Made by a program: the position numbers and the translations under genes. The notes beneath the pieces were generated by a model, which was not told the origin of the DNA, did not search any database, and saw nothing but the letters and a program-made list of their open reading frames with translations. Positions 27,051 through 38,013 of a DNA stretch of 38,013 nucleotides are shown one piece after another (within the stretch, counting starts at the first letter, position 1; each line of letters begins with the position of its first letter). Source of the stretch: Fidelibacterota bacterium (lineage in GTDB: Bacteria > Fidelibacterota > Marinisomatia > Marinisomatales > SCKK01); NCBI GenBank assembly GCA_022562455.1, contig JADFPG010000009.1, positions 1-38,013 on the forward strand. The letters run 5' to 3'.

Positions 27051-27062
27051 TGTTTTACAGAG

Positions 27063-27091
27063 TTGACATTTATGATTACAGGTGGTATTTT
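27063..27091 (+). promoter_or_regulatory. Promoter of the polysaccharide cluster
   Basis: TTGACA (27063-27068), a 17-bp spacer and TATTTT (27086-27091) form a near-consensus sigma70-type promoter. Transcription would start near 27098, giving a leader of about 17 nt that contains the GGAG ribosome-binding site of the next gene. No further strong promoter or terminator is seen through the cluster to the window end. Confidence 0.65.
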
Positions 27092-27114
27092 CACGCCGTT
27101 TTTGGAGTTATAGA

Positions 27115-28440
27115 ATGATTAAAATAGCAGTTATTGGCACGGGCTATGTGGGTTTAGTAACCGGAACCGGATTATCAGATTTTGGGAACAAAGTTGTCTG
27201 TACCGATATAAACAGAGAGAAAATAGAAATTCTTCAAAAAGGAGAAATTCCCATATATGAGCCCGGGCTTAAGGAATTAATTGATAGAAATGTTTCGTCG
27301 GGTCGATTGTCATTTTCCCATGATATTGGTACTGCTATTCAGAATGCAGAAGTCATATTTATTGCCGTCTGGACTCCTATGGGTGTGAATGGTGAAGCAG
27401 ATTTATCGGCTGTTATTGAAGTAGCAAAAACCATTGGACGGAACTTGAACAGGTATAAAGTAATATGCACAAAAAGTACGGTACCGATAGGTACTGGGGA
27501 TAAAATTAAGGAGGTCATTAAAGACAATTTAAATAGTGATAATAGTGATAATACTTTTGATGTTGTGTCAAATCCTGAATTCATGCGAGAAGGGTCGGCT
27601 GTTAAGGATTTTTTATTGCCCAATCGAGTCGTTATTGGAACAGAAAGTGAAAAAGCAAAAAGTATAATGAAAAATATTTATCGTCCCTTATTTATTAATG
27701 AAACTCCCATGGTATTTACAAATATTCCCACTGCGGAAACGATAAAATATGCGTCTAATGCATTTCTTGCCGTAAAAATATCGTTTATTAACGAAATTGC
27801 AAATCTTTGTGATGTTACAGGGGCGGATGTCCATGTAGTAGCAAAAGGGATGGGATTAGATGGCAGGATAAGTCCAAAATTCTTGCATCCGGGTCCTGGT
27901 TTTGGTGGATCTTGTTTTCCCAAAGATACAAGCGCATTAATACACATGGGAGAAAAAAGAGGCGTAGATTTTAATGTAGTTATGGCTGCATTGAAAACAA
28001 ATGAACACCAACGGTTACATGTATATAAAAAATTACTAATGCTGATGAATGAAAATGTAAAAGGCAAAAAAGTCGCTATTTTGGGTTTGGCATTCAAAGC
28101 CAACACGGACGATGTAAGGAAATCAGCTGCTGTTTATTTTCTTGAAAAACTGTTAAAAGATGGAGCGATTGTGACTGCCTTTGACCCGATAGCCAATTCT
28201 AATATGGAAAAAATCTTTCCCGCTGTTGGATATTGTAATTCTCTCAATGAGGCTGTAAAAGATACAGATGCCGTGGTCATCCTGACTGAATGGCATGAAT
28301 TCCGTGGGATGGATCTGGAGAAAGTGGCTTCACTCGTTCGGGAGAAAGTAATACTCGATGCTAAAAATATATTAAATCCCAATGAACTGAAACGGTTAGG
28401 TTATAACTTTGATAATGTGGGAAGACCAACTGTGAAATGA
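27115..28440 (+). CDS. ugd: UDP-glucose 6-dehydrogenase
   Basis: Oxidises UDP-glucose to UDP-glucuronate with NAD+. ATG 27115 is chosen because GGAG lies 7 nt upstream and the protein then begins with the Rossmann motif MIKIAVIGTGYVGLVTG; an in-frame GTG at 27082 would lie inside the promoter. The 441-residue product has the catalytic Cys267 in GPGFGGSCFPKD and the usual dehydrogenase-like C-terminal domain (AFKANTDDVRKSAAV). It overlaps the next gene by ATGA. It is the first of two nucleotide-sugar dehydrogenases in the cluster. Confidence 0.95.
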   Translation: MIKIAVIGTGYVGLVTGTGLSDFGNKVVCTDINREKIEILQKGEIPIYEPGLKELIDRNVSSGRLSFSHDIGTAIQNAEVIFIAVWTPMGVNGEADLSAVIEVAKTIGRNLNRYKVICTKSTVPIGTGDKIKEVIKDNLNSDNSDNTFDVVSNPEFMREGSAVKDFLLPNRVVIGTESEKAKSIMKNIYRPLFINETPMVFTNIPTAETIKYASNAFLAVKISFINEIANLCDVTGADVHVVAKGMGLDGRISPKFLHPGPGFGGSCFPKDTSALIHMGEKRGVDFNVVMAALKTNEHQRLHVYKKLLMLMNENVKGKKVAILGLAFKANTDDVRKSAAVYFLEKLLKDGAIVTAFDPIANSNMEKIFPAVGYCNSLNEAVKDTDAVVILTEWHEFRGMDLEKVASLVREKVILDAKNILNPNELKRLGYNFDNVGRPTVK

Positions 28441-28919
28441 GAAAAATAGAAGGGGTGAAAATAAAAGAATTGACTGTTCATCAGGATATTCCTGATACGG
28501 ATCAAAACAAAACAAACTTAGGATTTTTAATAGAGATTCTACGAGATGATGACGATCTATTGAAAAGGTTTGGACAAACAACATTCACCGTAACGTATGA
28601 AGATACAGTGAAAGCATTTCATTGGCATAAACGTCAGGATGATCTCTGGTTTGTAGCATCAGGTAAAGCAATAATCGTACTCCATGATATAAGAGAGAAT
28701 TCCCCAACTATCGGTGTGACTCAGGTGATCTCATCGGGGGATAATGATTATAAGTTAATTCTAATTCCTTCCGGAGTCGCTCATGGTTATAAAGTGATCA
28801 GTAAAAAGCCTGTTTTACTCTTCTATCATACTACTTGCAGTTACGACCCTTTAAATCCGGATGAAGAAAGAATTCCGTGGGATGACCCTGAGATTAATTT
28901 CGATTGGGACGCGGTGTAA
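28437..28919 (+). CDS. RmlC-like sugar epimerase-family cupin
   Basis: A 160-residue protein of the dTDP-4-dehydrorhamnose 3,5-epimerase fold. Its second half matches RmlC well (IPSGVAHGYKVISK, then YDPLNPDEERIPWDDPEINF). The first half differs: the catalytic GLHYQ region is replaced by AFHWHKRQDDLW. Lacking about 20 residues of RmlC, it may be a 3- or 5-epimerase or a ketoisomerase acting on the 4-keto sugar made by the RmlB encoded just downstream. Its ATG overlaps the ugd stop. Confidence 0.75.
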   Translation: MRKIEGVKIKELTVHQDIPDTDQNKTNLGFLIEILRDDDDLLKRFGQTTFTVTYEDTVKAFHWHKRQDDLWFVASGKAIIVLHDIRENSPTIGVTQVISSGDNDYKLILIPSGVAHGYKVISKKPVLLFYHTTCSYDPLNPDEERIPWDDPEINFDWDAV

Positions 28920-29014: not shown

Positions 29015-30031
29015 ATGACGACTTATCTCATCACAGGTGGTAGTGGCTTTATCGGTAGTAATTTTATCCGGTATCTTTTGAACAAAGATCCTGATAGTAC
29101 GGTGATAAACCTGGACAAACTCACCTATGCGGGAAATCAGGAAAATCTTCGAGACATTGAAAATGACTCCAGATACCATTTTGTTTATGGTGATATATGT
29201 GATGAATCAGTAGTAAATGAAATATTTGTGACTCAGAAACCTGACATTGTTATTAACTTTGCTGCCGAAAGTCACGTAGACAGGTCTATTGGAAAACCTG
29301 ATGATTTTATTAAAACCGATGTATTTGGAGTATTTGTGTTGTTAGAGGCATCAAAAAAATATGGTGTGGATTTTTTTATACAAATTAGTACCGATGAAGT
29401 CTATGGAAGTATCGATAAAGGATATTTTCAAGAAACAGATCAACTGATGCCCAGCAGCCCCTATTCTGCCACTAAAGCTGGCGGAGAGAGACTTGCCTTT
29501 TCCTATTTTGTTACATATAACCTTCCTGTCATCATCACGCGAGCCAGCAACAACTTTGGTCCGTATCAGTACCCAGAAAAGCTTATTCCTCTTTTTATTA
29601 CCAACGCCCTTGAAAATAAATTCTTACCCTTATACGGTGATGGGAAAAATGTCCGGGATTGGCTATTTGTGGAAGACCATTGTGAGGCAATTTTATATTT
29701 AATTAGAAAGGGTACAATTGGAGAGACATATAATATTGGTAGTGGGAATGAGATGCAGAATATCGAAATAACGAATCTCATTCTTGAATATCTTAAAAAG
29801 CCCTCAAGTCTGATAAAACCAGTGAAAGATAGGTTAGGTCACGACAGAAGGTATGCATTGGATTGTACGAAACTCCATTCATTAGGGTGGCGATCTGCTG
29901 TTAATTTTAACAAAGGTATGAGAACGACAATTGAATGGTACAAATCGAATGAAGAATGGTGGGAAAAAATTAAATCAGGAGAATTTCTCGATTTCTACAA
30001 ATCACACTATAAGTTATCATACACATCCTAA
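29015..30031 (+). CDS. rmlB: dTDP-glucose 4,6-dehydratase
   Basis: Converts dTDP-glucose to dTDP-4-keto-6-deoxyglucose, the entry to rhamnose and many deoxysugars. The 338-residue SDR protein has the NAD motif TGGSGFIGSN and the family block LTYAGNQENLRD. The ISTDEVYGS catalytic Asp/Glu and Y150-x3-K154 (YSATKAG) are present. The C-terminus IEWYKSNEEWWEKI is typical and helps recognise a second, broken copy at 31421-31546. No rmlA or rmlD is in the window. Confidence 0.95.
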   Translation: MTTYLITGGSGFIGSNFIRYLLNKDPDSTVINLDKLTYAGNQENLRDIENDSRYHFVYGDICDESVVNEIFVTQKPDIVINFAAESHVDRSIGKPDDFIKTDVFGVFVLLEASKKYGVDFFIQISTDEVYGSIDKGYFQETDQLMPSSPYSATKAGGERLAFSYFVTYNLPVIITRASNNFGPYQYPEKLIPLFITNALENKFLPLYGDGKNVRDWLFVEDHCEAILYLIRKGTIGETYNIGSGNEMQNIEITNLILEYLKKPSSLIKPVKDRLGHDRRYALDCTKLHSLGWRSAVNFNKGMRTTIEWYKSNEEWWEKIKSGEFLDFYKSHYKLSYTS

Positions 30032-30039
30032 GAAAAAAT

Positions 30040-31350
30040 ATGTCGACTAATCAGTTAAAGGAAAAAATTCTATCGAAAACTGCAAGGATTGGTATCGTCG
30101 GATTAGGGTACGTAGGTCTCCCGTTAGCCGTTGAATTTGCTAAGGCTGGGTTCAATGTACTTGGTATTGATATAGACCAATCGAAAGTTGAAAGTATTAA
30201 AAGCGGGATAAATTATATCAAGGATATTGACAATGACTATTTGAAGGGTGTTGTTACCAATGGTCATTTTACTGCAACTTTGGATTACAGTAAGATCGGT
30301 GATCTGGATATTGTCATTATCTGCGTTCCAACGCCGTTAAATAAATTAAAAGATCCGGATGTATCTTATATAATTTCGGTTTTAGATGAACTGGTTAAAT
30401 ATCTGCACGAAAATATGTTTATTATTTTGGAAAGCACTACCTACCCCGGAACAACTCGGGAATTGATTTTACCTTCTTTAGAAGAAACTGGATTAAAAAT
30501 AGGTGAAAATATTAATCTTGTATTTTCTCCCGAAAGAATTGATCCCGGGAATGATCAGTACACGTTGAAAAATACGCCAAAAGTTGTTGGCGGGATTACC
30601 CCCAATTGTACAGAATTGGGTAGAATATTATATAGCACAATTATATCGGATGTAGTAACAGTTAAGTCTACAGAATCAGCAGAAATGGTAAAGTTGTTAG
30701 AAAACACCTTTCGTTCAATTAATATCGGTCTGGTCAATGAAATGGCTATCATGTGTGACAAATTGGGTGTTGATGTCTGGGAAGTGATTGATGCTGCTGC
30801 AACCAAACCATTCGGTTTCATGAAGTTTTTGCCGGGTCCTGGTCTGGGAGGTCACTGTATTCCAATTGATCCTCATTATCTGGCATGGAAAATGAAATCT
30901 TTGGACTATAAGGCACGATTTATTGAATTAGCCGGTGAGATAAACACTGAGATGCCCTTTTATGTGGCAAACCTGGTATCTGAGGGGTTAAATCGATTTA
31001 AAAAAAGTATTAATGGGGCTAATATCTTAATCGTAGGCATCGCATATAAACCGGATATTGATGACATTCGTGAATCCCCAGCTCTTGATGTGATGAAAAT
31101 ATTAGAAGAGAAAGGTGCCAAAGTAATTTTTCACGATCCATATGTTGGGGAAATCCAATGGAATGGCGAAAGAATGCATTCTCAAGATATTTCACCTGAA
31201 TTAATATCATCGCAGGATATTGTAGTGGTTATCACTAACCATTCTATCATTGATTTTTCTATGATCCGGCAACATTCAAAGCTTGTGGTTGATACTCGCA
31301 ATATCATTGATGGTGATAACTCCAACGTCATAAAATTAGGAGCAGTATGA
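30040..31350 (+). CDS. UDP-HexNAc 6-dehydrogenase (WbpA/WecC-like)
   Basis: A 436-residue nucleotide-sugar dehydrogenase with the Rossmann motif RIGIVGLGYVGLPLAVEFA, catalytic Cys273 in GLGGHCIPIDP and the C-terminal AYKPDIDDIRESPA. The GGHC rather than GGSC motif and the N-terminal form place it with WbpA/TviB/WecC enzymes. These oxidise UDP-GlcNAc, UDP-GalNAc or UDP-ManNAc to the uronic acid; which substrate is not readable. Its stop overlaps an ATG that begins a truncated signal-peptide gene. Confidence 0.9.
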   Translation: MSTNQLKEKILSKTARIGIVGLGYVGLPLAVEFAKAGFNVLGIDIDQSKVESIKSGINYIKDIDNDYLKGVVTNGHFTATLDYSKIGDLDIVIICVPTPLNKLKDPDVSYIISVLDELVKYLHENMFIILESTTYPGTTRELILPSLEETGLKIGENINLVFSPERIDPGNDQYTLKNTPKVVGGITPNCTELGRILYSTIISDVVTVKSTESAEMVKLLENTFRSINIGLVNEMAIMCDKLGVDVWEVIDAAATKPFGFMKFLPGPGLGGHCIPIDPHYLAWKMKSLDYKARFIELAGEINTEMPFYVANLVSEGLNRFKKSINGANILIVGIAYKPDIDDIRESPALDVMKILEEKGAKVIFHDPYVGEIQWNGERMHSQDISPELISSQDIVVVITNHSIIDFSMIRQHSKLVVDTRNIIDGDNSNVIKLGAV

Positions 31351-31442
31351 AATTTATCATCTATCCATTTATCATTGTTACAACATTCATTTCAATTTCA
31401 TCTGCACAAACCTATGGAAGACTGGACGTGTCCTTGAGGTAG
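31347..31442 (+). pseudogene. Truncated signal-peptide gene
   Basis: The ATG overlaps the preceding stop (ATGA). The 31-residue frame reads MKFIIYPFIIVTTFISISSA then QTYGRLD and stops at TAG 31440-31442. It is a complete signal peptide with almost no mature protein. It looks like the start of a polysaccharide export (Wza-like) gene cut off by recombination; the intact export gene 300 bp downstream has a comparable AQTSGR motif after its own signal peptide. Confidence 0.6.
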
Positions 31443-31546
31443 CTCTGGGGGAGAACATTGAATGGTACAGGAACAACGAAACTTGGTGGTGCAAGATAAA
31501 GTCGGGTGAATTTATGGAATATTACATGAGGCACTATGAGTTTTAG
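31421..31546 (+). pseudogene. C-terminal fragment of a second RmlB
   Basis: In a frame different from the signal peptide fragment, the sequence encodes NIEWYRNNETWWCKIKSGEF and ends MEYYMRHYEF at TAG 31544-31546. The intact RmlB upstream ends IEWYKSNEEWWEKIKSGEF, so this is the last 30-40 residues of another RmlB of different sequence. The join lies near 31412-31430. No start codon or other RmlB sequence is present. Confidence 0.75.
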
Positions 31547-31652
31547 GAGTCTTGGAGATTGCTATGGGAATTGGAACAGATATGCAGGCAAACCGAACGA
31601 CGAATTAGCCAAGACAGCCATATATGGATCTAAAAGTAAGAGGATACTGTGA
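31536..31652 (+). CDS. Possible 38-residue small protein
   Basis: An ATG with GAGG 5 nt upstream opens a 38-codon frame that ends at TGA 31650-31652, exactly before the GTG of the export gene. The product (MSFRSLGDCYGNWNRYAGKP, then polar residues) matches nothing recognised. It could be a real small gene coupled to the export gene, or carried-over debris from the cassette that brought the RmlB fragment. It also contains the ribosome-binding site of the next gene. Confidence 0.3.
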   Translation: MSFRSLGDCYGNWNRYAGKPNDELAKTAIYGSKSKRIL

Positions 31653-32678
31653 GTGAGGCTATGTGTGAATAGGTCAAAGAAGTATTTACTGATTATGCTC
31701 ATGTTTCCTCTAGGAACGTTCTGGGCACAGACATCAGGCAGGTCACGAATATTTGGCGAAATGGAGACAAAGTATCAGGGACCTATAATAGAAGACCTGA
31801 CCGTTAGGTCCGTGGATCAGTATACACCCATTGAGGGCCCCATTGACCCTGATTCTTATATCCTCGGGCCAGGTGATATACTTGGTGTTAACATTATTAC
31901 AGTAGAGAACCTGACATTTCTGCTCCCGGTGAATCCGACCGGCGAATTGTTGATTCCAACAGTTGGTATCGTGAAAGTAGCAGAGCTAACATTGACAGAA
32001 GTCATTGTAGTAATCAAAGAATTCATTATACAAAATGCTTATCGTAATGCTGTGGTGGATGTAACGCTAGTAGGAATGCGCAAATTCCGAATCCTTGTGA
32101 TGGGTGGTGTACAAGAACCTGGATTTGTGACGGCGACACTCGTAGATCGTCTCACTGACGTGATTTCTGAAGCAGGGGGATTGCATAAGTACGCTGATGA
32201 AGAAAGAATCAGGATCGTCAGATGGAATGGGAATATCGAGTCTGTCTCTATCAAGCAGTTCCTCTTGGGGGCAGATCTTGACCATAACCCTACTGTGCAG
32301 GAGGGAGATCGAATTGAGGTTCCTTTTCTATCGGGTTACCAGCCGAGAGTAGAAGAATTTACGACATACAATGAAAGTGCCATTTTCGTAATCGGATTTG
32401 TAAGATTTCCCGGGGCGTTACGATATTTTCCTGGCTATTCTGTTCGAGACTACATTGGAATGGCTGGTGGCGTTTTAGAGACGGGGGATTCCAAGAAAGT
32501 TCTGGTGTCGCGATTGGGGTTAGGAAGTGATATCGGTCTTGCAGATTATGCTAGACCAGGTGACACTATTTACGTTCCAGAGAATATTCGTAGCCGTATA
32601 TTGGGAAACGCCAGTATCATTCAGACATTATCAGCCATTGCGGGTCTTTATCTGAGCTATCTTGCAGCCACGAGGTAA
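31653..32678 (+). CDS. SLBB-domain polysaccharide export protein (Wza-like)
   Basis: The 341-residue product begins at GTG 31653, with AAGAGGA 8 nt upstream. It has a signal peptide (about 8-26, IMLMFPLGTFWAQ) and a poly_export domain (about 65-145, DSYILGPGDILGVNIITVEN). SLBB-type beta-grasp repeats follow (ILVMGGVQEPGFV, then IFVIGFVRFPGALRYFPGYS), and a hydrophobic C-terminus (SIIQTLSAIAGLYLSYL) ends it. Proteins of this family form the periplasm/outer-membrane channel for capsule or exopolysaccharide. By eye its base composition is more GC-rich than the genes on either side, and it follows a scar, suggesting a separate origin. Confidence 0.88.
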   Translation: MRLCVNRSKKYLLIMLMFPLGTFWAQTSGRSRIFGEMETKYQGPIIEDLTVRSVDQYTPIEGPIDPDSYILGPGDILGVNIITVENLTFLLPVNPTGELLIPTVGIVKVAELTLTEVIVVIKEFIIQNAYRNAVVDVTLVGMRKFRILVMGGVQEPGFVTATLVDRLTDVISEAGGLHKYADEERIRIVRWNGNIESVSIKQFLLGADLDHNPTVQEGDRIEVPFLSGYQPRVEEFTTYNESAIFVIGFVRFPGALRYFPGYSVRDYIGMAGGVLETGDSKKVLVSRLGLGSDIGLADYARPGDTIYVPENIRSRILGNASIIQTLSAIAGLYLSYLAATR

Positions 32679-32682
32679 TAGC

Positions 32683-33993
32683 TTGAAAAACCTTACACAG
32701 CACGAAACGAGAATCTTGGATCTAACGCGAAAGTATCCAGAGATTGTAAGTGATAGATCTGCCCGGGAAAAGGTTGCATCTGAGATCGGAATAACAGAAA
32801 AGACATTAAGAAATCGGATTGCTGATTTGAAGAGGTATGGATTATTAAATGTTTTAGGAGAAAAGTCGAAACAGACCATTTCACACGCAGAAGAAATCAA
32901 ATTTGAAAGAGAGATCAATCTTTTTGATTATGCCAAGATTATTTGGGATAATAAATGGATTTTAATGCAAATAATCGGGAGTATCTCCATTTTATCAGTT
33001 ATTGTTACCTTACTTCTCCCGGTTTGGTATAAAGCGACTACTGTAATACTTCCCCCCACATCACAATCGTCATCTTTAGGTGCCCTGGGTTTACTGGGAG
33101 ATGTTGGCTTTGGTAATCTTCTAGGCGGGGATAATTCTCAAAACCAGTACCTCGCTGTATTAAAGAGTCATCAACTTCGAAGAAAAGTTATTAAACGATT
33201 CTATTTACAGAATAAGTATAACCTGGAAACCATGCAAGAGACCTTCGACGCCTTGGATAATAATACTGAGGTCGAAGTTGGCGATGAAATGCAGATTTCA
33301 ATTTCTGTCTGGGATAAGGAGCAGGATATTGTTGCTGATATGGCTAACTACATGATCTTCTGTTTAGACAGCATAAATATTGAATTTTCTACCAGCTCTG
33401 CGAAAAATAATCGAGAATTTATCCAAGGGAGAATCGAGGAGATTATTGATAGTCTATATGTACTTGAACAAAAATTTACCGAGGTCATGGAAGACGAAGG
33501 TATACTTGCCCTTGAAGACCAAGTACGTGTTGGAGTGGAAAAAGCAGCCGAAATCCAATTCATGATTATGGTGAAGGAAGTTGAACTTGAAATAACTAAA
33601 GTAGCTTATCAAGGTAAAAGTCCCAAGATTCAGATTCTTGAAAGAGAACTGGAAAGCTTAAAAAATAAATATCTTGCCTTCACACAGGGAAATATTGATG
33701 AACAACTGGTACCTTCTTTTAAAAAAGTGCCCCAATTAAAATTAACGTTCGAACAACTTGCTAGAAAAATTGATTATTATACCAAATTACTCGCTTTTTT
33801 GGGGCCCCAATTTGAACAAGCAAAGATAGAAGAAGTTAAGGACATTTCAACCGTACAGATTCTAGATCAGGCCATAACACCCGAGAAGAAAGATAAACCT
33901 AAACGAACACTAATTGTTCTTGTTACTTTTTTCGTAAGTACATTCTTAGCGATAAGTGCTGTAATTATTAAGGATAGTTCAAAGACGTCCTAA
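32683..33993 (+). CDS. Wzz-type chain-length protein with N-terminal helix-turn-helix
   Basis: TTG 32683 is chosen because GAGGT lies 8 nt upstream; it begins 4 bp after the export gene stop. Residues about 8-60 form a helix-turn-helix or winged-helix domain (HETRILDLTRKYPEIVSDRS, then EIGITEKTLRNRIADLKRYG). A first membrane segment lies at about 93-113 and a periplasmic Wzz/GNVR region follows (PVWYKATTVILPPTSQSSSL). A coiled-coil stretch sits near 290-370, and a second membrane segment at about 408-430. Wzz proteins set polysaccharide length, and normally the N-terminus is a short cytoplasmic tail. No C-terminal tyrosine kinase is present. The cytoplasmic HTH suggests direct DNA or RNA binding by a membrane co-polymerase, which is unusual. 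Confidence 0.85.
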   Translation: MKNLTQHETRILDLTRKYPEIVSDRSAREKVASEIGITEKTLRNRIADLKRYGLLNVLGEKSKQTISHAEEIKFEREINLFDYAKIIWDNKWILMQIIGSISILSVIVTLLLPVWYKATTVILPPTSQSSSLGALGLLGDVGFGNLLGGDNSQNQYLAVLKSHQLRRKVIKRFYLQNKYNLETMQETFDALDNNTEVEVGDEMQISISVWDKEQDIVADMANYMIFCLDSINIEFSTSSAKNNREFIQGRIEEIIDSLYVLEQKFTEVMEDEGILALEDQVRVGVEKAAEIQFMIMVKEVELEITKVAYQGKSPKIQILERELESLKNKYLAFTQGNIDEQLVPSFKKVPQLKLTFEQLARKIDYYTKLLAFLGPQFEQAKIEEVKDISTVQILDQAITPEKKDKPKRTLIVLVTFFVSTFLAISAVIIKDSSKTS

Positions 33994-34031
33994 TAGTAAA
34001 TTGGTTATCATTCTTAGAATGATTGGCTAAC

Positions 34032-35216
34032 ATGCGGTTAAGATTGTTCACTAAACTCATTACATTTTTTAAATTACTATGTGAGATACCGCTCTGTATT
34101 ATTTATTTCATTTCTTGTATGATACCGAAGGATAAATCCTTGTGGATTTTTGGATCATATGGCGATCAATATAATGATAACAGTAAACATTTTTTTGAGT
34201 ATGTAAGGAGAAATAAAGCCCATATCAATGCGGTCTGGCTTACCAACAATGACGAATTAATAAAAGAACTTAGGGATAAAGCCGTTCGCGTAGAAAATAA
34301 ATTTTCTTGGAGAGGATTTTATACTTCCGCACGCGCAGGGATTGTGATTATTTCTTCATATAGAAATAATGTGAATCCATACGCGATCGGTGGCTCTTTT
34401 GTTGTGAATCTATGGCACGGATTCTCGGTTAAAAAGATGGAGTATGATATTCCACCCGGTTATAACAAAGGATTCTATTGGCGCAGACGGATTTTTGAGA
34501 AATTCGCTTTACTTTTACCCAGGTTTCGGTACGATTATAATCTGTTGACGACTCCTTCAAAGATGGTTGCGAAGATATATGAACGTACTTTCAGAATGAA
34601 GGCAGAAAATATTGTTGTTACCGGCGATCCCCGCACTGATGTTCTTTTCCCAATCAGGTCACCGGTCGATTCCCCTAAAACGATCTTATACATGCCTACT
34701 TTTCGATCCCATCAAGAATTAAATTTTTTCAATTATAGTTTTTATCCAGATCGATGGGTAGCAACGTTAAAAAAACATGATTGCGTACTAAAAGTAAGAT
34801 TCCATTCTAATGAAAAGATAAATGAAAAATTAATTAGTACATGGGTGAAAACTTATGATCAGTTTGAATATATTCAGCGGAAGGAAGATACATATTCATT
34901 ATTTACGGAAGCATCACTTCTAATTACAGATTATTCTAGTGTTATGTTCGATTTTTCTATTACTGGCAGACCGGTGGTATTTTTACCTTTGGATATAGAG
35001 GATTATCTTGATCGCGAGCGGCCGATGTATTTTGATTACAAAAAAGAGATAGCCAGAGATTATCGTTTTGATGATTGGGAGCAGTTGAGGGAATACATAG
35101 ATTTGAATGGAGTTGCCAAAATTGATACTTCCCGTTTTCTCGGACAAGTTCATGATTTTCATGACGGTAAATCATCCGAACGCGTTTATAATGCGATTGT
35201 AACAAGAGTTTCTTGA
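34032..35216 (+). CDS. CDP-glycerol glycerophosphotransferase-family protein (TagB/TagF-like)
   Basis: The 394-residue product has an N-terminal hydrophobic stretch (about 8-30) and the GT-B fold typical of TagB/TagF: SLWIFGSYGDQYNDNSKHFF, NLWHGFSVKKM, VTGDPRTDVLF, ILYMPTFRSH and LLITDYSSVMFDF. The two conserved His/Asp clusters are present. Such enzymes transfer glycerol- or ribitol-phosphate, or related units, from CDP carriers and occur in Gram-negative capsule clusters too. No tagD-like cytidylyltransferase is in the window. ATG 34032 is preferred over TTG 34023; neither has a strong ribosome-binding site. Confidence 0.85.
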   Translation: MRLRLFTKLITFFKLLCEIPLCIIYFISCMIPKDKSLWIFGSYGDQYNDNSKHFFEYVRRNKAHINAVWLTNNDELIKELRDKAVRVENKFSWRGFYTSARAGIVIISSYRNNVNPYAIGGSFVVNLWHGFSVKKMEYDIPPGYNKGFYWRRRIFEKFALLLPRFRYDYNLLTTPSKMVAKIYERTFRMKAENIVVTGDPRTDVLFPIRSPVDSPKTILYMPTFRSHQELNFFNYSFYPDRWVATLKKHDCVLKVRFHSNEKINEKLISTWVKTYDQFEYIQRKEDTYSLFTEASLLITDYSSVMFDFSITGRPVVFLPLDIEDYLDRERPMYFDYKKEIARDYRFDDWEQLREYIDLNGVAKIDTSRFLGQVHDFHDGKSSERVYNAIVTRVS

Positions 35217-36505
35217 ATATTCGATCTATTTTTAATTCGCAATTTTATAGGAACACTTTTGTCCTATTTTCTGGGAATGCCGTCAACCAAATAATATTAT
35301 TATTAACATATCCAATTATATCTAGACTTTATGAACCGGCGGATTTTGGACACTTTGAACAGGTTAATGCTATTTTTCTGTTTATTGTCCTGCTGGCATC
35401 TTTAAGGTATGAATATGCAATCATCATTGCAAAAGATGATAATGAGGCCAGCAATGTGCTGACATTATCCTTATTTCTATTAATAGTTTTCTCGGTAGTA
35501 GTTTTTATTCTTCTCCTTCTTTTTAGATCATCAATTGCCGTAATGCTTTCAAATCCAAAACTAGAATTATATCTTTTTTGGATTTCGCCATTTTTATTGG
35601 TAGCCGGGATGCAACAGATTCTTTATAACTGGATTATTCGTAAGAAGAATTTCAAATTAGCCAACAGTTCTAATATACTAAAATCATCTACCAATTCTTT
35701 AGGAAGGGTAGCGTTAGGTTTTATTATCGCCAACCCCATATCACTATTTCTTTCAAGGGGGATTTCTTTTTTATTGTCGTTATTAATCCTAGTCCGGAAA
35801 GAGATTATCCCCTTTTTCAACGCTTTAAAGAATGGTGTTATTTCTTTACCGGGAGTAATGTCCGTAGCGAAGAAATATAAGGACTTCCCTTTGTACATGG
35901 GTGGTGGAGTTATCCTGAATCGTTTTACAACCAGTTTAACCCCCTTATTACTGTCAGGTTTTTTTGGTTTAAAAGTATTAGGTTTTTATGCGATGGCAAA
36001 CACGGCCTTGAATATTCCTATTTCAATATTAAGGAACTCAATACAAACTGTGTTTTTGCAAGAAGCTTCTGAATTAAAGAATAAGGAAAAGAAAATTTCC
36101 GGAGAATTATTAAAAATCACATTATTACTTTTTACAATTGGAATTATTCCAACAGGTCTGATCATTGGATTCGGCCCGAAAATATTTTCTTTTATTCTAG
36201 GTTCGCAATGGGAGCTGTCAGGAACGATAGCAAGTATCATTATAATATGGCTTTTCTTTACAATTGTTGCTACTCCATCAATGGCCATAGTTCCCGTAGT
36301 AAATCTTCAACAGTATTATCTCATCCTTCAAACTATCCTATGCATTACGCGGATTGTAGTTTTATTTGGTACATATACCCTTTATGGGGAACTTAAATCG
36401 GTTCTATACGGATTGATGTTACATGGTTCACTATTTAATATATTTAACGTCATTTATGTAATGAAAAAAACGCATCAAATTGAGATAAGAAATTTTGAAG
36501 CTTAA
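35213..36505 (+). CDS. Wzx-type lipid-linked oligosaccharide flippase
   Basis: A 430-residue integral membrane protein with about 12 hydrophobic segments. The polysaccharide-transporter N-terminus (NTFVLFSGNAVNQIILLLTY, then PIISRLYEPADFGHFEQ) is typical of the MOP flippase superfamily. It should move undecaprenyl-linked repeat units from cytoplasm to periplasm. The TTG start at 35213 overlaps the preceding stop (TTGA). Its end overlaps the polymerase gene by 11 nt. Confidence 0.9.
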   Translation: MNIRSIFNSQFYRNTFVLFSGNAVNQIILLLTYPIISRLYEPADFGHFEQVNAIFLFIVLLASLRYEYAIIIAKDDNEASNVLTLSLFLLIVFSVVVFILLLLFRSSIAVMLSNPKLELYLFWISPFLLVAGMQQILYNWIIRKKNFKLANSSNILKSSTNSLGRVALGFIIANPISLFLSRGISFLLSLLILVRKEIIPFFNALKNGVISLPGVMSVAKKYKDFPLYMGGGVILNRFTTSLTPLLLSGFFGLKVLGFYAMANTALNIPISILRNSIQTVFLQEASELKNKEKKISGELLKITLLLFTIGIIPTGLIIGFGPKIFSFILGSQWELSGTIASIIIIWLFFTIVATPSMAIVPVVNLQQYYLILQTILCITRIVVLFGTYTLYGELKSVLYGLMLHGSLFNIFNVIYVMKKTHQIEIRNFEA

Positions 36506-37787
36506 CAGGAATTCACCATTTCTAAAAATATCTTTCTTTTTTCTTTATTGTTTAACATTGTTTTTTATTCTATTTGAGAGAATTCCTCTTCCCGAGATCA
36601 ACATGTCTCCTTATAGAATTTGTACCGGGATAGTATTAGCACTGGTAGTGTTAGAATTAGTGAAGAAAAAACAGGCTGATATACCCAATGAACTATTGTT
36701 ATTTTTACTATTTTTGATCGGTACGTCACTAATCGGTATAAATACTAGAAATCTATCAGTCTACATACAGTATTTATTTCTTTCTTGTTTAGCCGTTATT
36801 ATTTACAATCTATTAAAAATAGTACAATTAAGACAACGCGACTTTAATATATTGATGTATTTACTCATAGTGATTGGTTGTATAGGTGGACTGACTCTAT
36901 TAACTGATTATTATCAATTAACGCAGTTTAGTCTTTTATTCGGTAAAGAGATATATAAGGAATCGTTGTCCGGTAGAGGGGCCGGCCTTTTAGGGGGAGA
37001 GGCCAATTTAACCGCTGCACGACTGGTAGCTTTACTGCCATTTGGATTATATCTATTATTTTCATCAAAGAAATGGGGGATTAATAAAATCGTTGTATTT
37101 TTTATGGCTAGTATAATTCTCTTTGCGATTATTCTTACGGGATCACGCATGGGGATTTTGGCATTATGTCAGATAATACTATTCACGATGATATATGAAA
37201 TGCGTAAAGCTAAATTAGGTATGAGAATTAGTTTGGTCGTTGGATTTATTGGACTGATAACAGTCCTTTTCTTATCTTTTGGACTTATTAAGGACAAAAA
37301 ATCTCAATCACGATTTGAAAGTTTAGGTTCAATCACTGATTTGAATAAAATCTCCTATACGAATTATGATATGGATGAATCACTCGTTGAACGGTTCTTG
37401 CTGATGTGGGTAGGTGTAGATCTAATTAGAAAAAATCCAATCTGGGGAATAGGAATTGGGAACGCGAAGTATATGCCTCAAAAATATCTTCCTACTATCG
37501 ATAAAATAAAATATTTGCATAACACCTACTTAGATGTTGGTTCAGAGAATGGGATTCCAATGCTTTTAATTCTAATAATGTTTTTGGGATGGATTTTAGT
37601 TTCATTATTTAAAAAACGTACACATATTGAACATGACTTCTATTTCTATTTTAGTCTGGGTTTCTGGATTCTAATGTTCTGCTGGTTTTTCCTATCCGAT
37701 TTTTCAAACAAACTGTTCTGGAATTTATTTCTTCCTTTGGCCATGTATTTGATAAAAAAGCCAAATCCTGAGGTAACTTTTGATTAA
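36495..37787 (+). CDS. O-antigen polymerase/ligase-family membrane protein (Wzy-like)
   Basis: A 430-residue protein with about 11 hydrophobic segments and a larger periplasmic loop near 270-340 containing NPIWGIGIGNAKYMPQKY and YLHNTYLDVGSENG. This Arg/Gly/His pattern is typical of Wzy_C/O-antigen ligase family proteins. In a Wzx/Wzz cluster it is best read as the polymerase that joins flipped repeat units. Start TTG 36495 lies within the end of the flippase gene; a ribosome-binding site is not clear. Confidence 0.85.
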   Translation: MKLNRNSPFLKISFFFLYCLTLFFILFERIPLPEINMSPYRICTGIVLALVVLELVKKKQADIPNELLLFLLFLIGTSLIGINTRNLSVYIQYLFLSCLAVIIYNLLKIVQLRQRDFNILMYLLIVIGCIGGLTLLTDYYQLTQFSLLFGKEIYKESLSGRGAGLLGGEANLTAARLVALLPFGLYLLFSSKKWGINKIVVFFMASIILFAIILTGSRMGILALCQIILFTMIYEMRKAKLGMRISLVVGFIGLITVLFLSFGLIKDKKSQSRFESLGSITDLNKISYTNYDMDESLVERFLLMWVGVDLIRKNPIWGIGIGNAKYMPQKYLPTIDKIKYLHNTYLDVGSENGIPMLLILIMFLGWILVSLFKKRTHIEHDFYFYFSLGFWILMFCWFFLSDFSNKLFWNLFLPLAMYLIKKPNPEVTFD

Positions 37788-38013
37788 TTCACTCGTTAGC
37801 GTGGCTATTGTGACTCATAATCGTAAAAGAGAAGTAAAAAAAGCGATTCAATCGGTATTTAAGCAGTCCTACCCGTCATTGGAAGTAGTTGTTGTTGATA
37901 ATGGTTCAACAGATGGAACCAGTGCAATGATTGCAAGAGAATTTCCAACGGTTCAACTTGTACGATCTCCTAGTAATAAGGGATGTCCTCAGGGAAGAAA
38001 TATAGCTATTAAG
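37780..38013 (+). CDS. Family 2 glycosyltransferase, N-terminal part
   Basis: The frame starts at TTG 37780 with GAGGT 6 nt upstream, overlaps the polymerase stop by 8 nt and runs off the right edge after 78 codons. It reads LVSVAIVTHNRKREVKKAIQ then VVVVDNGSTDGT, the nucleotide-sugar-binding N-terminal part of a GT-A fold, with the DNGS acidic motif, and SNKGCPQGRNIAIK. It should add a sugar to the repeat unit in the cytoplasm; specificity cannot be read. Confidence 0.92.
   Translation, partial: MINSLVSVAIVTHNRKREVKKAIQSVFKQSYPSLEVVVVDNGSTDGTSAMIAREFPTVQLVRSPSNKGCPQGRNIAIK

Follow-up and report, generated by a model that had tools for sequence, protein, structure and literature searches.

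A helix-turn-helix domain on a Wzz-type polysaccharide co-polymerase and a palindromic candidate operator in its operon

We analysed a stretch of 38,013 nucleotides from a Fidelibacterota bacterium (assembly GCA_022562455.1, contig JADFPG010000009.1, forward strand; hereafter the window), in which an operon headed by ugd carries a gene for a Wzz-type co-polymerase with an N-terminal helix-turn-helix (HTH) domain, referred to here as HTH-Wzz. Its features are:

27063-27091, + strand: sigma-70/FCB-like promoter TTGACA-17-TATTTT upstream of ugd (read directly, consensus only)
27115-28440, + strand: ugd, UDP-glucose dehydrogenase, operon head (Pfam)
27261-27268, no strand: GCCCGGGC palindrome, candidate operator, within the ugd codons for EPGL
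28437-28919, + strand: dTDP-sugar isomerase-like cupin (Pfam)
29015-30031, + strand: RmlB-like dehydratase (Pfam)
30040-31350, + strand: WecC-like UDP-sugar dehydrogenase (Pfam)
31653-32678, + strand: Wza-type export protein (Poly_export and SLBB; Pfam)
32683-33993, + strand: HTH-Wzz gene (436 aa, TTG start), predicted polysaccharide co-polymerase with N-terminal HTH
32689-32862, + strand: HTH domain, residues 3-60, helices 6-17, 25-35 and 39-51
32797-32835, + strand: predicted recognition helix, residues 39-51 (EKTLRNRIADLKR), its putative role assigned from the AlphaFold2 helix and near-invariance
32911-33195, + strand: Wzz domain, residues 77-171, with TM1 at residues 91-111 (Pfam PF02706, E 4.1e-13; AlphaFold2)
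33763-33975, + strand: GNVR domain, residues 361-431, with TM2 at residues 408-435 (Pfam PF13807, E 8.7e-11; AlphaFold2)
34023-35216, + strand: glycerophosphotransferase (Glyphos_transf; Pfam)
35213-36505, + strand: Wzx-type flippase (Pfam)
36495-37787, + strand: Wzy-type polymerase / O-antigen ligase family (Pfam)

We confirmed that 32683-33993 is a real open reading frame (ORF) encoding a Wzz/GNVR polysaccharide co-polymerase with an N-terminal HTH. Its TTG start is in register with the ATG/TTG starts of homologues and is preceded by a GAGG-type Shine-Dalgarno-like sequence, and both Pfam domains score above their curated cut-offs (49.9 vs. 25.5 bits for Wzz; 42 vs. 27.7 bits for GNVR). AlphaFold2 built the three HTH helices at pLDDT about 80-94, followed by a disordered linker at residues 57-77 (pLDDT below 50) and by the two hydrophobic helices, which in the predicted topology bracket a periplasmic alpha-helical domain. 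Foldseek matched the complete chain to Wzc, WzzE and KpsE (E down to 5e-14), and Pfam detected no C-terminal BY-kinase, the ORF ending after TM2.

The original prediction had placed an HTH, fused to Wzz, on the cytoplasmic side of the membrane, and profile searches, structure prediction and conservation of the same domain order in 60 of the ~130 genomes of the order all support this. As a single sequence the head gave matches below threshold (HTH_11 at 0.007; also CggR_N and Csa3); the family profile, built from 24 homologue sequences, was clear, matching the Csa3 wHTH in the PDB at 4.5e-6, and family members match HTH_24 with E down to 8.9e-7. The nearest folds were Lrp/AsnC HTHs at a TM of about 0.7, a likeness that is indicative at most since the Foldseek E-values were above 0.1. 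No match to the winged HTH of OmpR/Trans_reg_C type was listed for the head, the nearest being HTH_11, CggR_N, HTH_24 and AsnC-type domains, and the C-terminal RAM domain is absent, the HTH leading into the linker, a TM helix and Wzz. Profile, AlphaFold2 model and alignment agree on a tri-helical HTH fold with a conserved recognition helix. Conservation along the protein is highest in the head (3.0 bits per column vs. 2.4-2.8 elsewhere outside the linker), where L4, H7, E8, P19, R28, A32, E39, K40, T41, R43, N44 and R45 are invariant, and the recognition helix is the most invariant part of the whole protein; the two arginines of the invariant R-N-R would suit a GG-rich half-site.

Across the phylum, the HTH profile matched 64 of 245 genomes at E<=0.001, comprising the 60 in the order, nearly always with one HTH-Wzz per genome, one strong match outside the order (G213) and three weak partial ones. 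Every complete match in the 245 genomes lay within an ORF of Wzz size and never in a stand-alone regulator; the shorter matching ORFs are apparent gene fragments, several of them at contig edges. In the window's own genome 32683-33993 is the single match, and other contigs encode several HTH-less Wzz proteins and a ~800-aa Wzc-like ORF (contig C118). The original prediction would have counted homologues without the head against the domain, and some relatives do lack it (family f13, L038, L039); these, f13 for example, lack the palindrome described below as well. Since HTH-less homologues exist, the HTH is a module that has been gained or lost and does not belong to the Wzz fold itself. With the HTH left out, the tree of Wzz bodies divides the HTH bearers into two parts with HTH-less clades between them (96-99% support), forcing at least four gains or losses. 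The HTHs of families f6 and f9 are about 46-57% identical to that of the window, their bodies align weakly with the window body, and within the window's genome the protein nearest to the f6/f9 body is the HTH-less Wzz on contig C64, not the window protein; those f6 loci with the palindrome at position +51 of wza carry two different Wzz bodies. Judged from these alignments and the tree, the same HTH is carried by two distantly related Wzz subfamilies. Among open papers, we found no HTH-Wzz fusion by title or abstract.

The HTH-wzz gene is linked to genes for export, flippase and polymerase (Wza at 31653, Wzx at 35213, Wzy at 36495), and no other regulator was recognised by Pfam among the operon genes. 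Compared with a congener (G001), identity is about 96% for the genes up to 31350, 59% for wza and 35% for HTH-wzz, and the genes downstream of HTH-wzz are largely unrelated; by this comparison, two species of the genus differ by a serotype-like cassette exchange in which the HTH was retained. Against locus L085, the window loses similarity abruptly over 31350-38013, beginning in the gap before wza. Within this 302-bp gap, positions 31460-31546 encode EWYRNNETWWCKIKSGEFMEYYMRHYEF*, which resembles the C-terminus of the RmlB-like dehydratase at 29015-30031 and, on that likeness, is what remains of a gene at the border of the variable cassette.

The 8-bp palindrome GCCCGGGC was first seen as an invariant element in the aligned serS-wza intergenic region of 15 f6 loci (serS being identified by inspection of the protein), where it adjoins a predicted FCB-type promoter. 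Of 47 loci, 43 have it upstream of HTH-wzz. The stretches up to 6.5 kb upstream of the gene, 319 kb in all, contain 66 copies, with about 1 expected, and those up to 6 kb downstream, 315 kb in all, contain none; CGGGCCCG, used as reversed control, had none on either side. In an unbiased ranking, GCCCGGGC came first of 6501 tested 8-mers (43/47 loci vs. 1.5 expected, z 35), and those ranked next overlap it, although all such counts for HTH and palindrome are inflated by the kinship of the genomes. Four genomes (G048, G053, G107 and G133) have only one or two copies each, all in the HTH-wzz operon. As a separate observation, GCCCGGGC is depleted genome-wide relative to the reversed control in many f7, f10 and f8g25 genomes (for example, 3 vs. 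18, 9 vs. 55 and 1 vs. 11), which looks as if stray copies were selected against.

The position of the palindrome relative to the predicted promoter varies among families. The YEPGL codons of ugd contain it in f1, f2, f4, f5, f7, f11 and f12 (in f12, one of two exact). Family f8 has it at +309 of ugd, and f8g25 in the preceding gene; for f6g16 and f6g37 it falls within the signal peptide of wza, where the ARA residues 18-20 are constant and the rest varies. The other f6 loci have an intergenic copy, just upstream of the predicted -33/-7 promoter, and mostly a second one in wza at about +190-250. In the window, the copy is about 165 bp downstream of the predicted transcription start. The original prediction had named 27051-27114 as the DNA target; promoter-like sequence does lie there, but it holds no palindrome conserved across families, and the conserved element is instead the one at 27261-27268 in ugd.

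Codon usage points to selection at the codon level in HTH-linked ugd. In the HTH-linked set (32 ugd genes, two of uncertain HTH status), the proline is CCC in 29/29 and the glycine GGG in 27/31, ranking 1 and 3 of 239 columns by codon deviation, and the sole columns of comparable deviation are serine columns; the same proline and glycine codons are ordinary in 41 unlinked or HTH-less ugd genes. CCCGGG at EPGL occurs in 25/26 HTH-linked ugd genes, 0/13 unlinked and 2/28 HTH-less ones, of which L193 comes from a genome that is 64% complete and has a sister with the HTH, and L169 from a contig that ends shortly after ugd. Protein constraint as the cause of GCCCGGGC in ugd was rejected on the basis of this codon analysis and the unlinked and HTH-less controls. 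In f6g16, three ugd genes that lie upstream in the HTH-wzz operon also lack CCCGGG at EPGL; the site is at wza there.

The palindrome is likewise absent from the region in f13, where ugd, wza and an HTH-less wzz are linked and CCGGGT stands as a synonymous variant, and from the contigs of the window's genome that carry HTH-less Wzz genes (C64, C89, C7 and C118). The converse mismatch also occurs: f8g18 (G020, G099; L096, L104) has the HTH, with its recognition helix unchanged, and no GCCCGGGC within one mismatch in 8 kb, and f10 has ACCCGGGC only. An underpowered independent-pairs test on the ugd tree, with four pairs only, gave two for, one against and one tie.

Two further elements were noted. 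The serS-wza intergenic region contains a second conserved element, AGGAATACTATCGATATAAACTGCGCCCAGTTTAA, 3' of the predicted promoter and with an inverted repeat AAACTG-CGCC-CAGTTT (L109, L111, L115, L117-L119, L123-L126, L128 and L129); the f6 leader that includes it had no Rfam match in the five loci searched. An lpxB-like gene (L243, which is contig C41 of genome G000; L283-L292) has two GCCCGGGC copies about 800 bp apart, at the PARAILIDY codons and near the 3' end; the pair was present in the two f1 genomes and in most f7 genomes examined, the first copy only in f3, and neither in G040. Given this pair, the regulon may be wider, or GCCCGGGC may be the target of another regulator that acts on the envelope more broadly. 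A genome-wide GCCCGGGC regulon was rejected, since the other sites inspected in the window's own and related genomes, lpxB excepted, lie inside seemingly unrelated coding sequences.

We consider it probable that HTH-Wzz is both a co-polymerase and a membrane-tethered regulator that binds GCCCGGGC and thereby couples its own capsule/O-antigen operon to the amount or state of Wzz. The fusion, its conservation, the palindrome and the co-occurrence of palindrome and HTH can be read directly from the sequences; from them we infer that the HTH binds GCCCGGGC, that binding alters transcription and that the state of Wzz is the signal. A flexible linker of about 20-30 residues would keep the N-terminal HTH in the cytoplasm close to the membrane, and the HTH heads of oligomeric Wzz would most likely bind GCCCGGGC at the 5' part of their own operon. 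Transcription of the genes for sugar precursors, export and polymerisation might in this way respond to how much Wzz is assembled or to its state. The f6 site, just upstream of the predicted -33, would suit activation, and the window site, past the predicted start, would suit a roadblock, or looping where two sites exist; the putative regulator may act as repressor or as activator. A palindrome whose occurrence follows that of the HTH lends comparative support to the regulatory idea of the original prediction, in which DNA binding is a conjectural step.

A wider version of this mechanism can be offered tentatively, in which Wzz would read the state of chain assembly by oligomerisation, loop paired GCCCGGGC sites as repressor or activator of its operon and possibly control lpxB; a single bifunctional enzyme-regulator, shared across the order, would thereby balance capsule and lipid A synthesis. 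It is unlikely, in our estimation, that GCCCGGGC instead serves some other, soluble regulator of envelope genes as its operator, with the Wzz HTH having another DNA target or a protein-protein role, and with HTH and palindrome co-occurring since both belong to the same type of regulated operon. The two conserved lpxB sites in f1 and f7 and the f8g18 loci with HTH and no site fit such a regulator; however, the site tracks the HTH-wzz operon and not a gene, being absent from unlinked ugd, from f13 and from the other Wzz loci of the same genome, and the operon offers no second recognisable regulator.

We regard it as very improbable that GCCCGGGC acts as an ops-like element for pausing or antitermination, with a NusG paralogue of RfaH/UpxY/LoaP type or RNA polymerase as its reader; its place close to the 5' part of long operons for polysaccharides, in many cases within transcribed sequence, would accord with such a role. 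However, genomes with both HTH and site (G008, G018, G051 and G053) have one NusG only, whereas HTH-less ones (f13, f8g21, G033 and G055) mostly have two or three and no site; in addition, the conserved f6 copy is upstream of the predicted promoter and the f6g16 copy well inside the operon. A NusG paralogue as reader was rejected on this double dissociation of site and paralogue. Separately, we observed that a second protein of the NusG family is common across the order, and that some HTH-Wzz genomes lack it. The HTH of Wzz would be the simplest reader of GCCCGGGC.

It is more improbable still that the HTH, as a relic or as a module for protein interaction, binds no DNA and that the palindrome is a codon accident; the sub-threshold single-sequence Pfam matches of the head would agree with this, but its recognition helix is the most invariant part of the protein, the codon deviation is confined to linked ugd and the intergenic copies are invariant in the 15 aligned f6 loci. 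A recombination site for exchange of the serotype-like cassette that begins near wza is scarcely credible, since the abrupt divergence of the genus pair after 31350, which suggested it, is set against copies on one side of HTH-wzz only, a distance of 4-5 kb from GCCCGGGC to the breakpoint in the window, and the absence of GCCCGGGC where there is no HTH.

Proteins of the Wzz type are the textbook regulators of chain length; to our knowledge, how a cell senses the amount of polymer it has made is poorly understood. Our preferred reading, in which HTH-Wzz binds GCCCGGGC, suggests that sugar-chain machinery may control its own genes; if true, a DNA-binding Wzz would be a direct feedback link from envelope polymer assembly to transcription. 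The palindrome makes the idea testable: the protein domain and the 8-bp site are both defined, and f13 and unlinked ugd are natural negative controls. Synonymous-codon conservation is a suggested way to find regulatory sites hidden in coding sequences of uncultured bacteria.

Like the Wzz/PCP-1 proteins (WzzB, WzzE, FepE; PF02706), HTH-Wzz has two TM helices around a periplasmic helical region, with Wzz and GNVR domains and with Wza, Wzx and Wzy genes adjacent; canonical Wzz proteins have only a short cytoplasmic N-terminus, whereas HTH-Wzz has an extra N-terminal HTH of about 60 residues. The Wzc/BY-kinase co-polymerases (PCP-2a) share the membrane and periplasmic core and likewise have a cytoplasmic appendage that couples the co-polymerase to control, but theirs is a C-terminal tyrosine kinase and that of HTH-Wzz an N-terminal HTH. 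From Lrp/AsnC and Csa3, to which the head gives its nearest folds and profile matches, HTH-Wzz differs by having no RAM or CARF ligand domain and no wing in the model, and from RfaH/UpxY/LoaP with ops, which also pair a short element with the start of polysaccharide operons, by the independence of GCCCGGGC from NusG paralogues. The comparison with ToxR and CadC drawn in the original prediction holds for the order of parts, since as in ToxR, CadC and TcpP a cytoplasmic N-terminal DNA-binding domain, a TM helix and a periplasmic part are predicted in one chain (sequence and AlphaFold2); it fails for the HTH, which is Lrp/AsnC- or Csa3-like and tri-helical rather than OmpR-type, and unlike these regulators HTH-Wzz has two TM helices and a sensor part that is the biosynthetic co-polymerase itself. 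A survey of transmembrane one-component regulators mentions neither Wzz nor chain length in its main text (PMC10269533). HTH-Wzz is probably a regulator of this transmembrane one-component type, with a co-polymerase as its membrane part and a candidate operator found by comparison.
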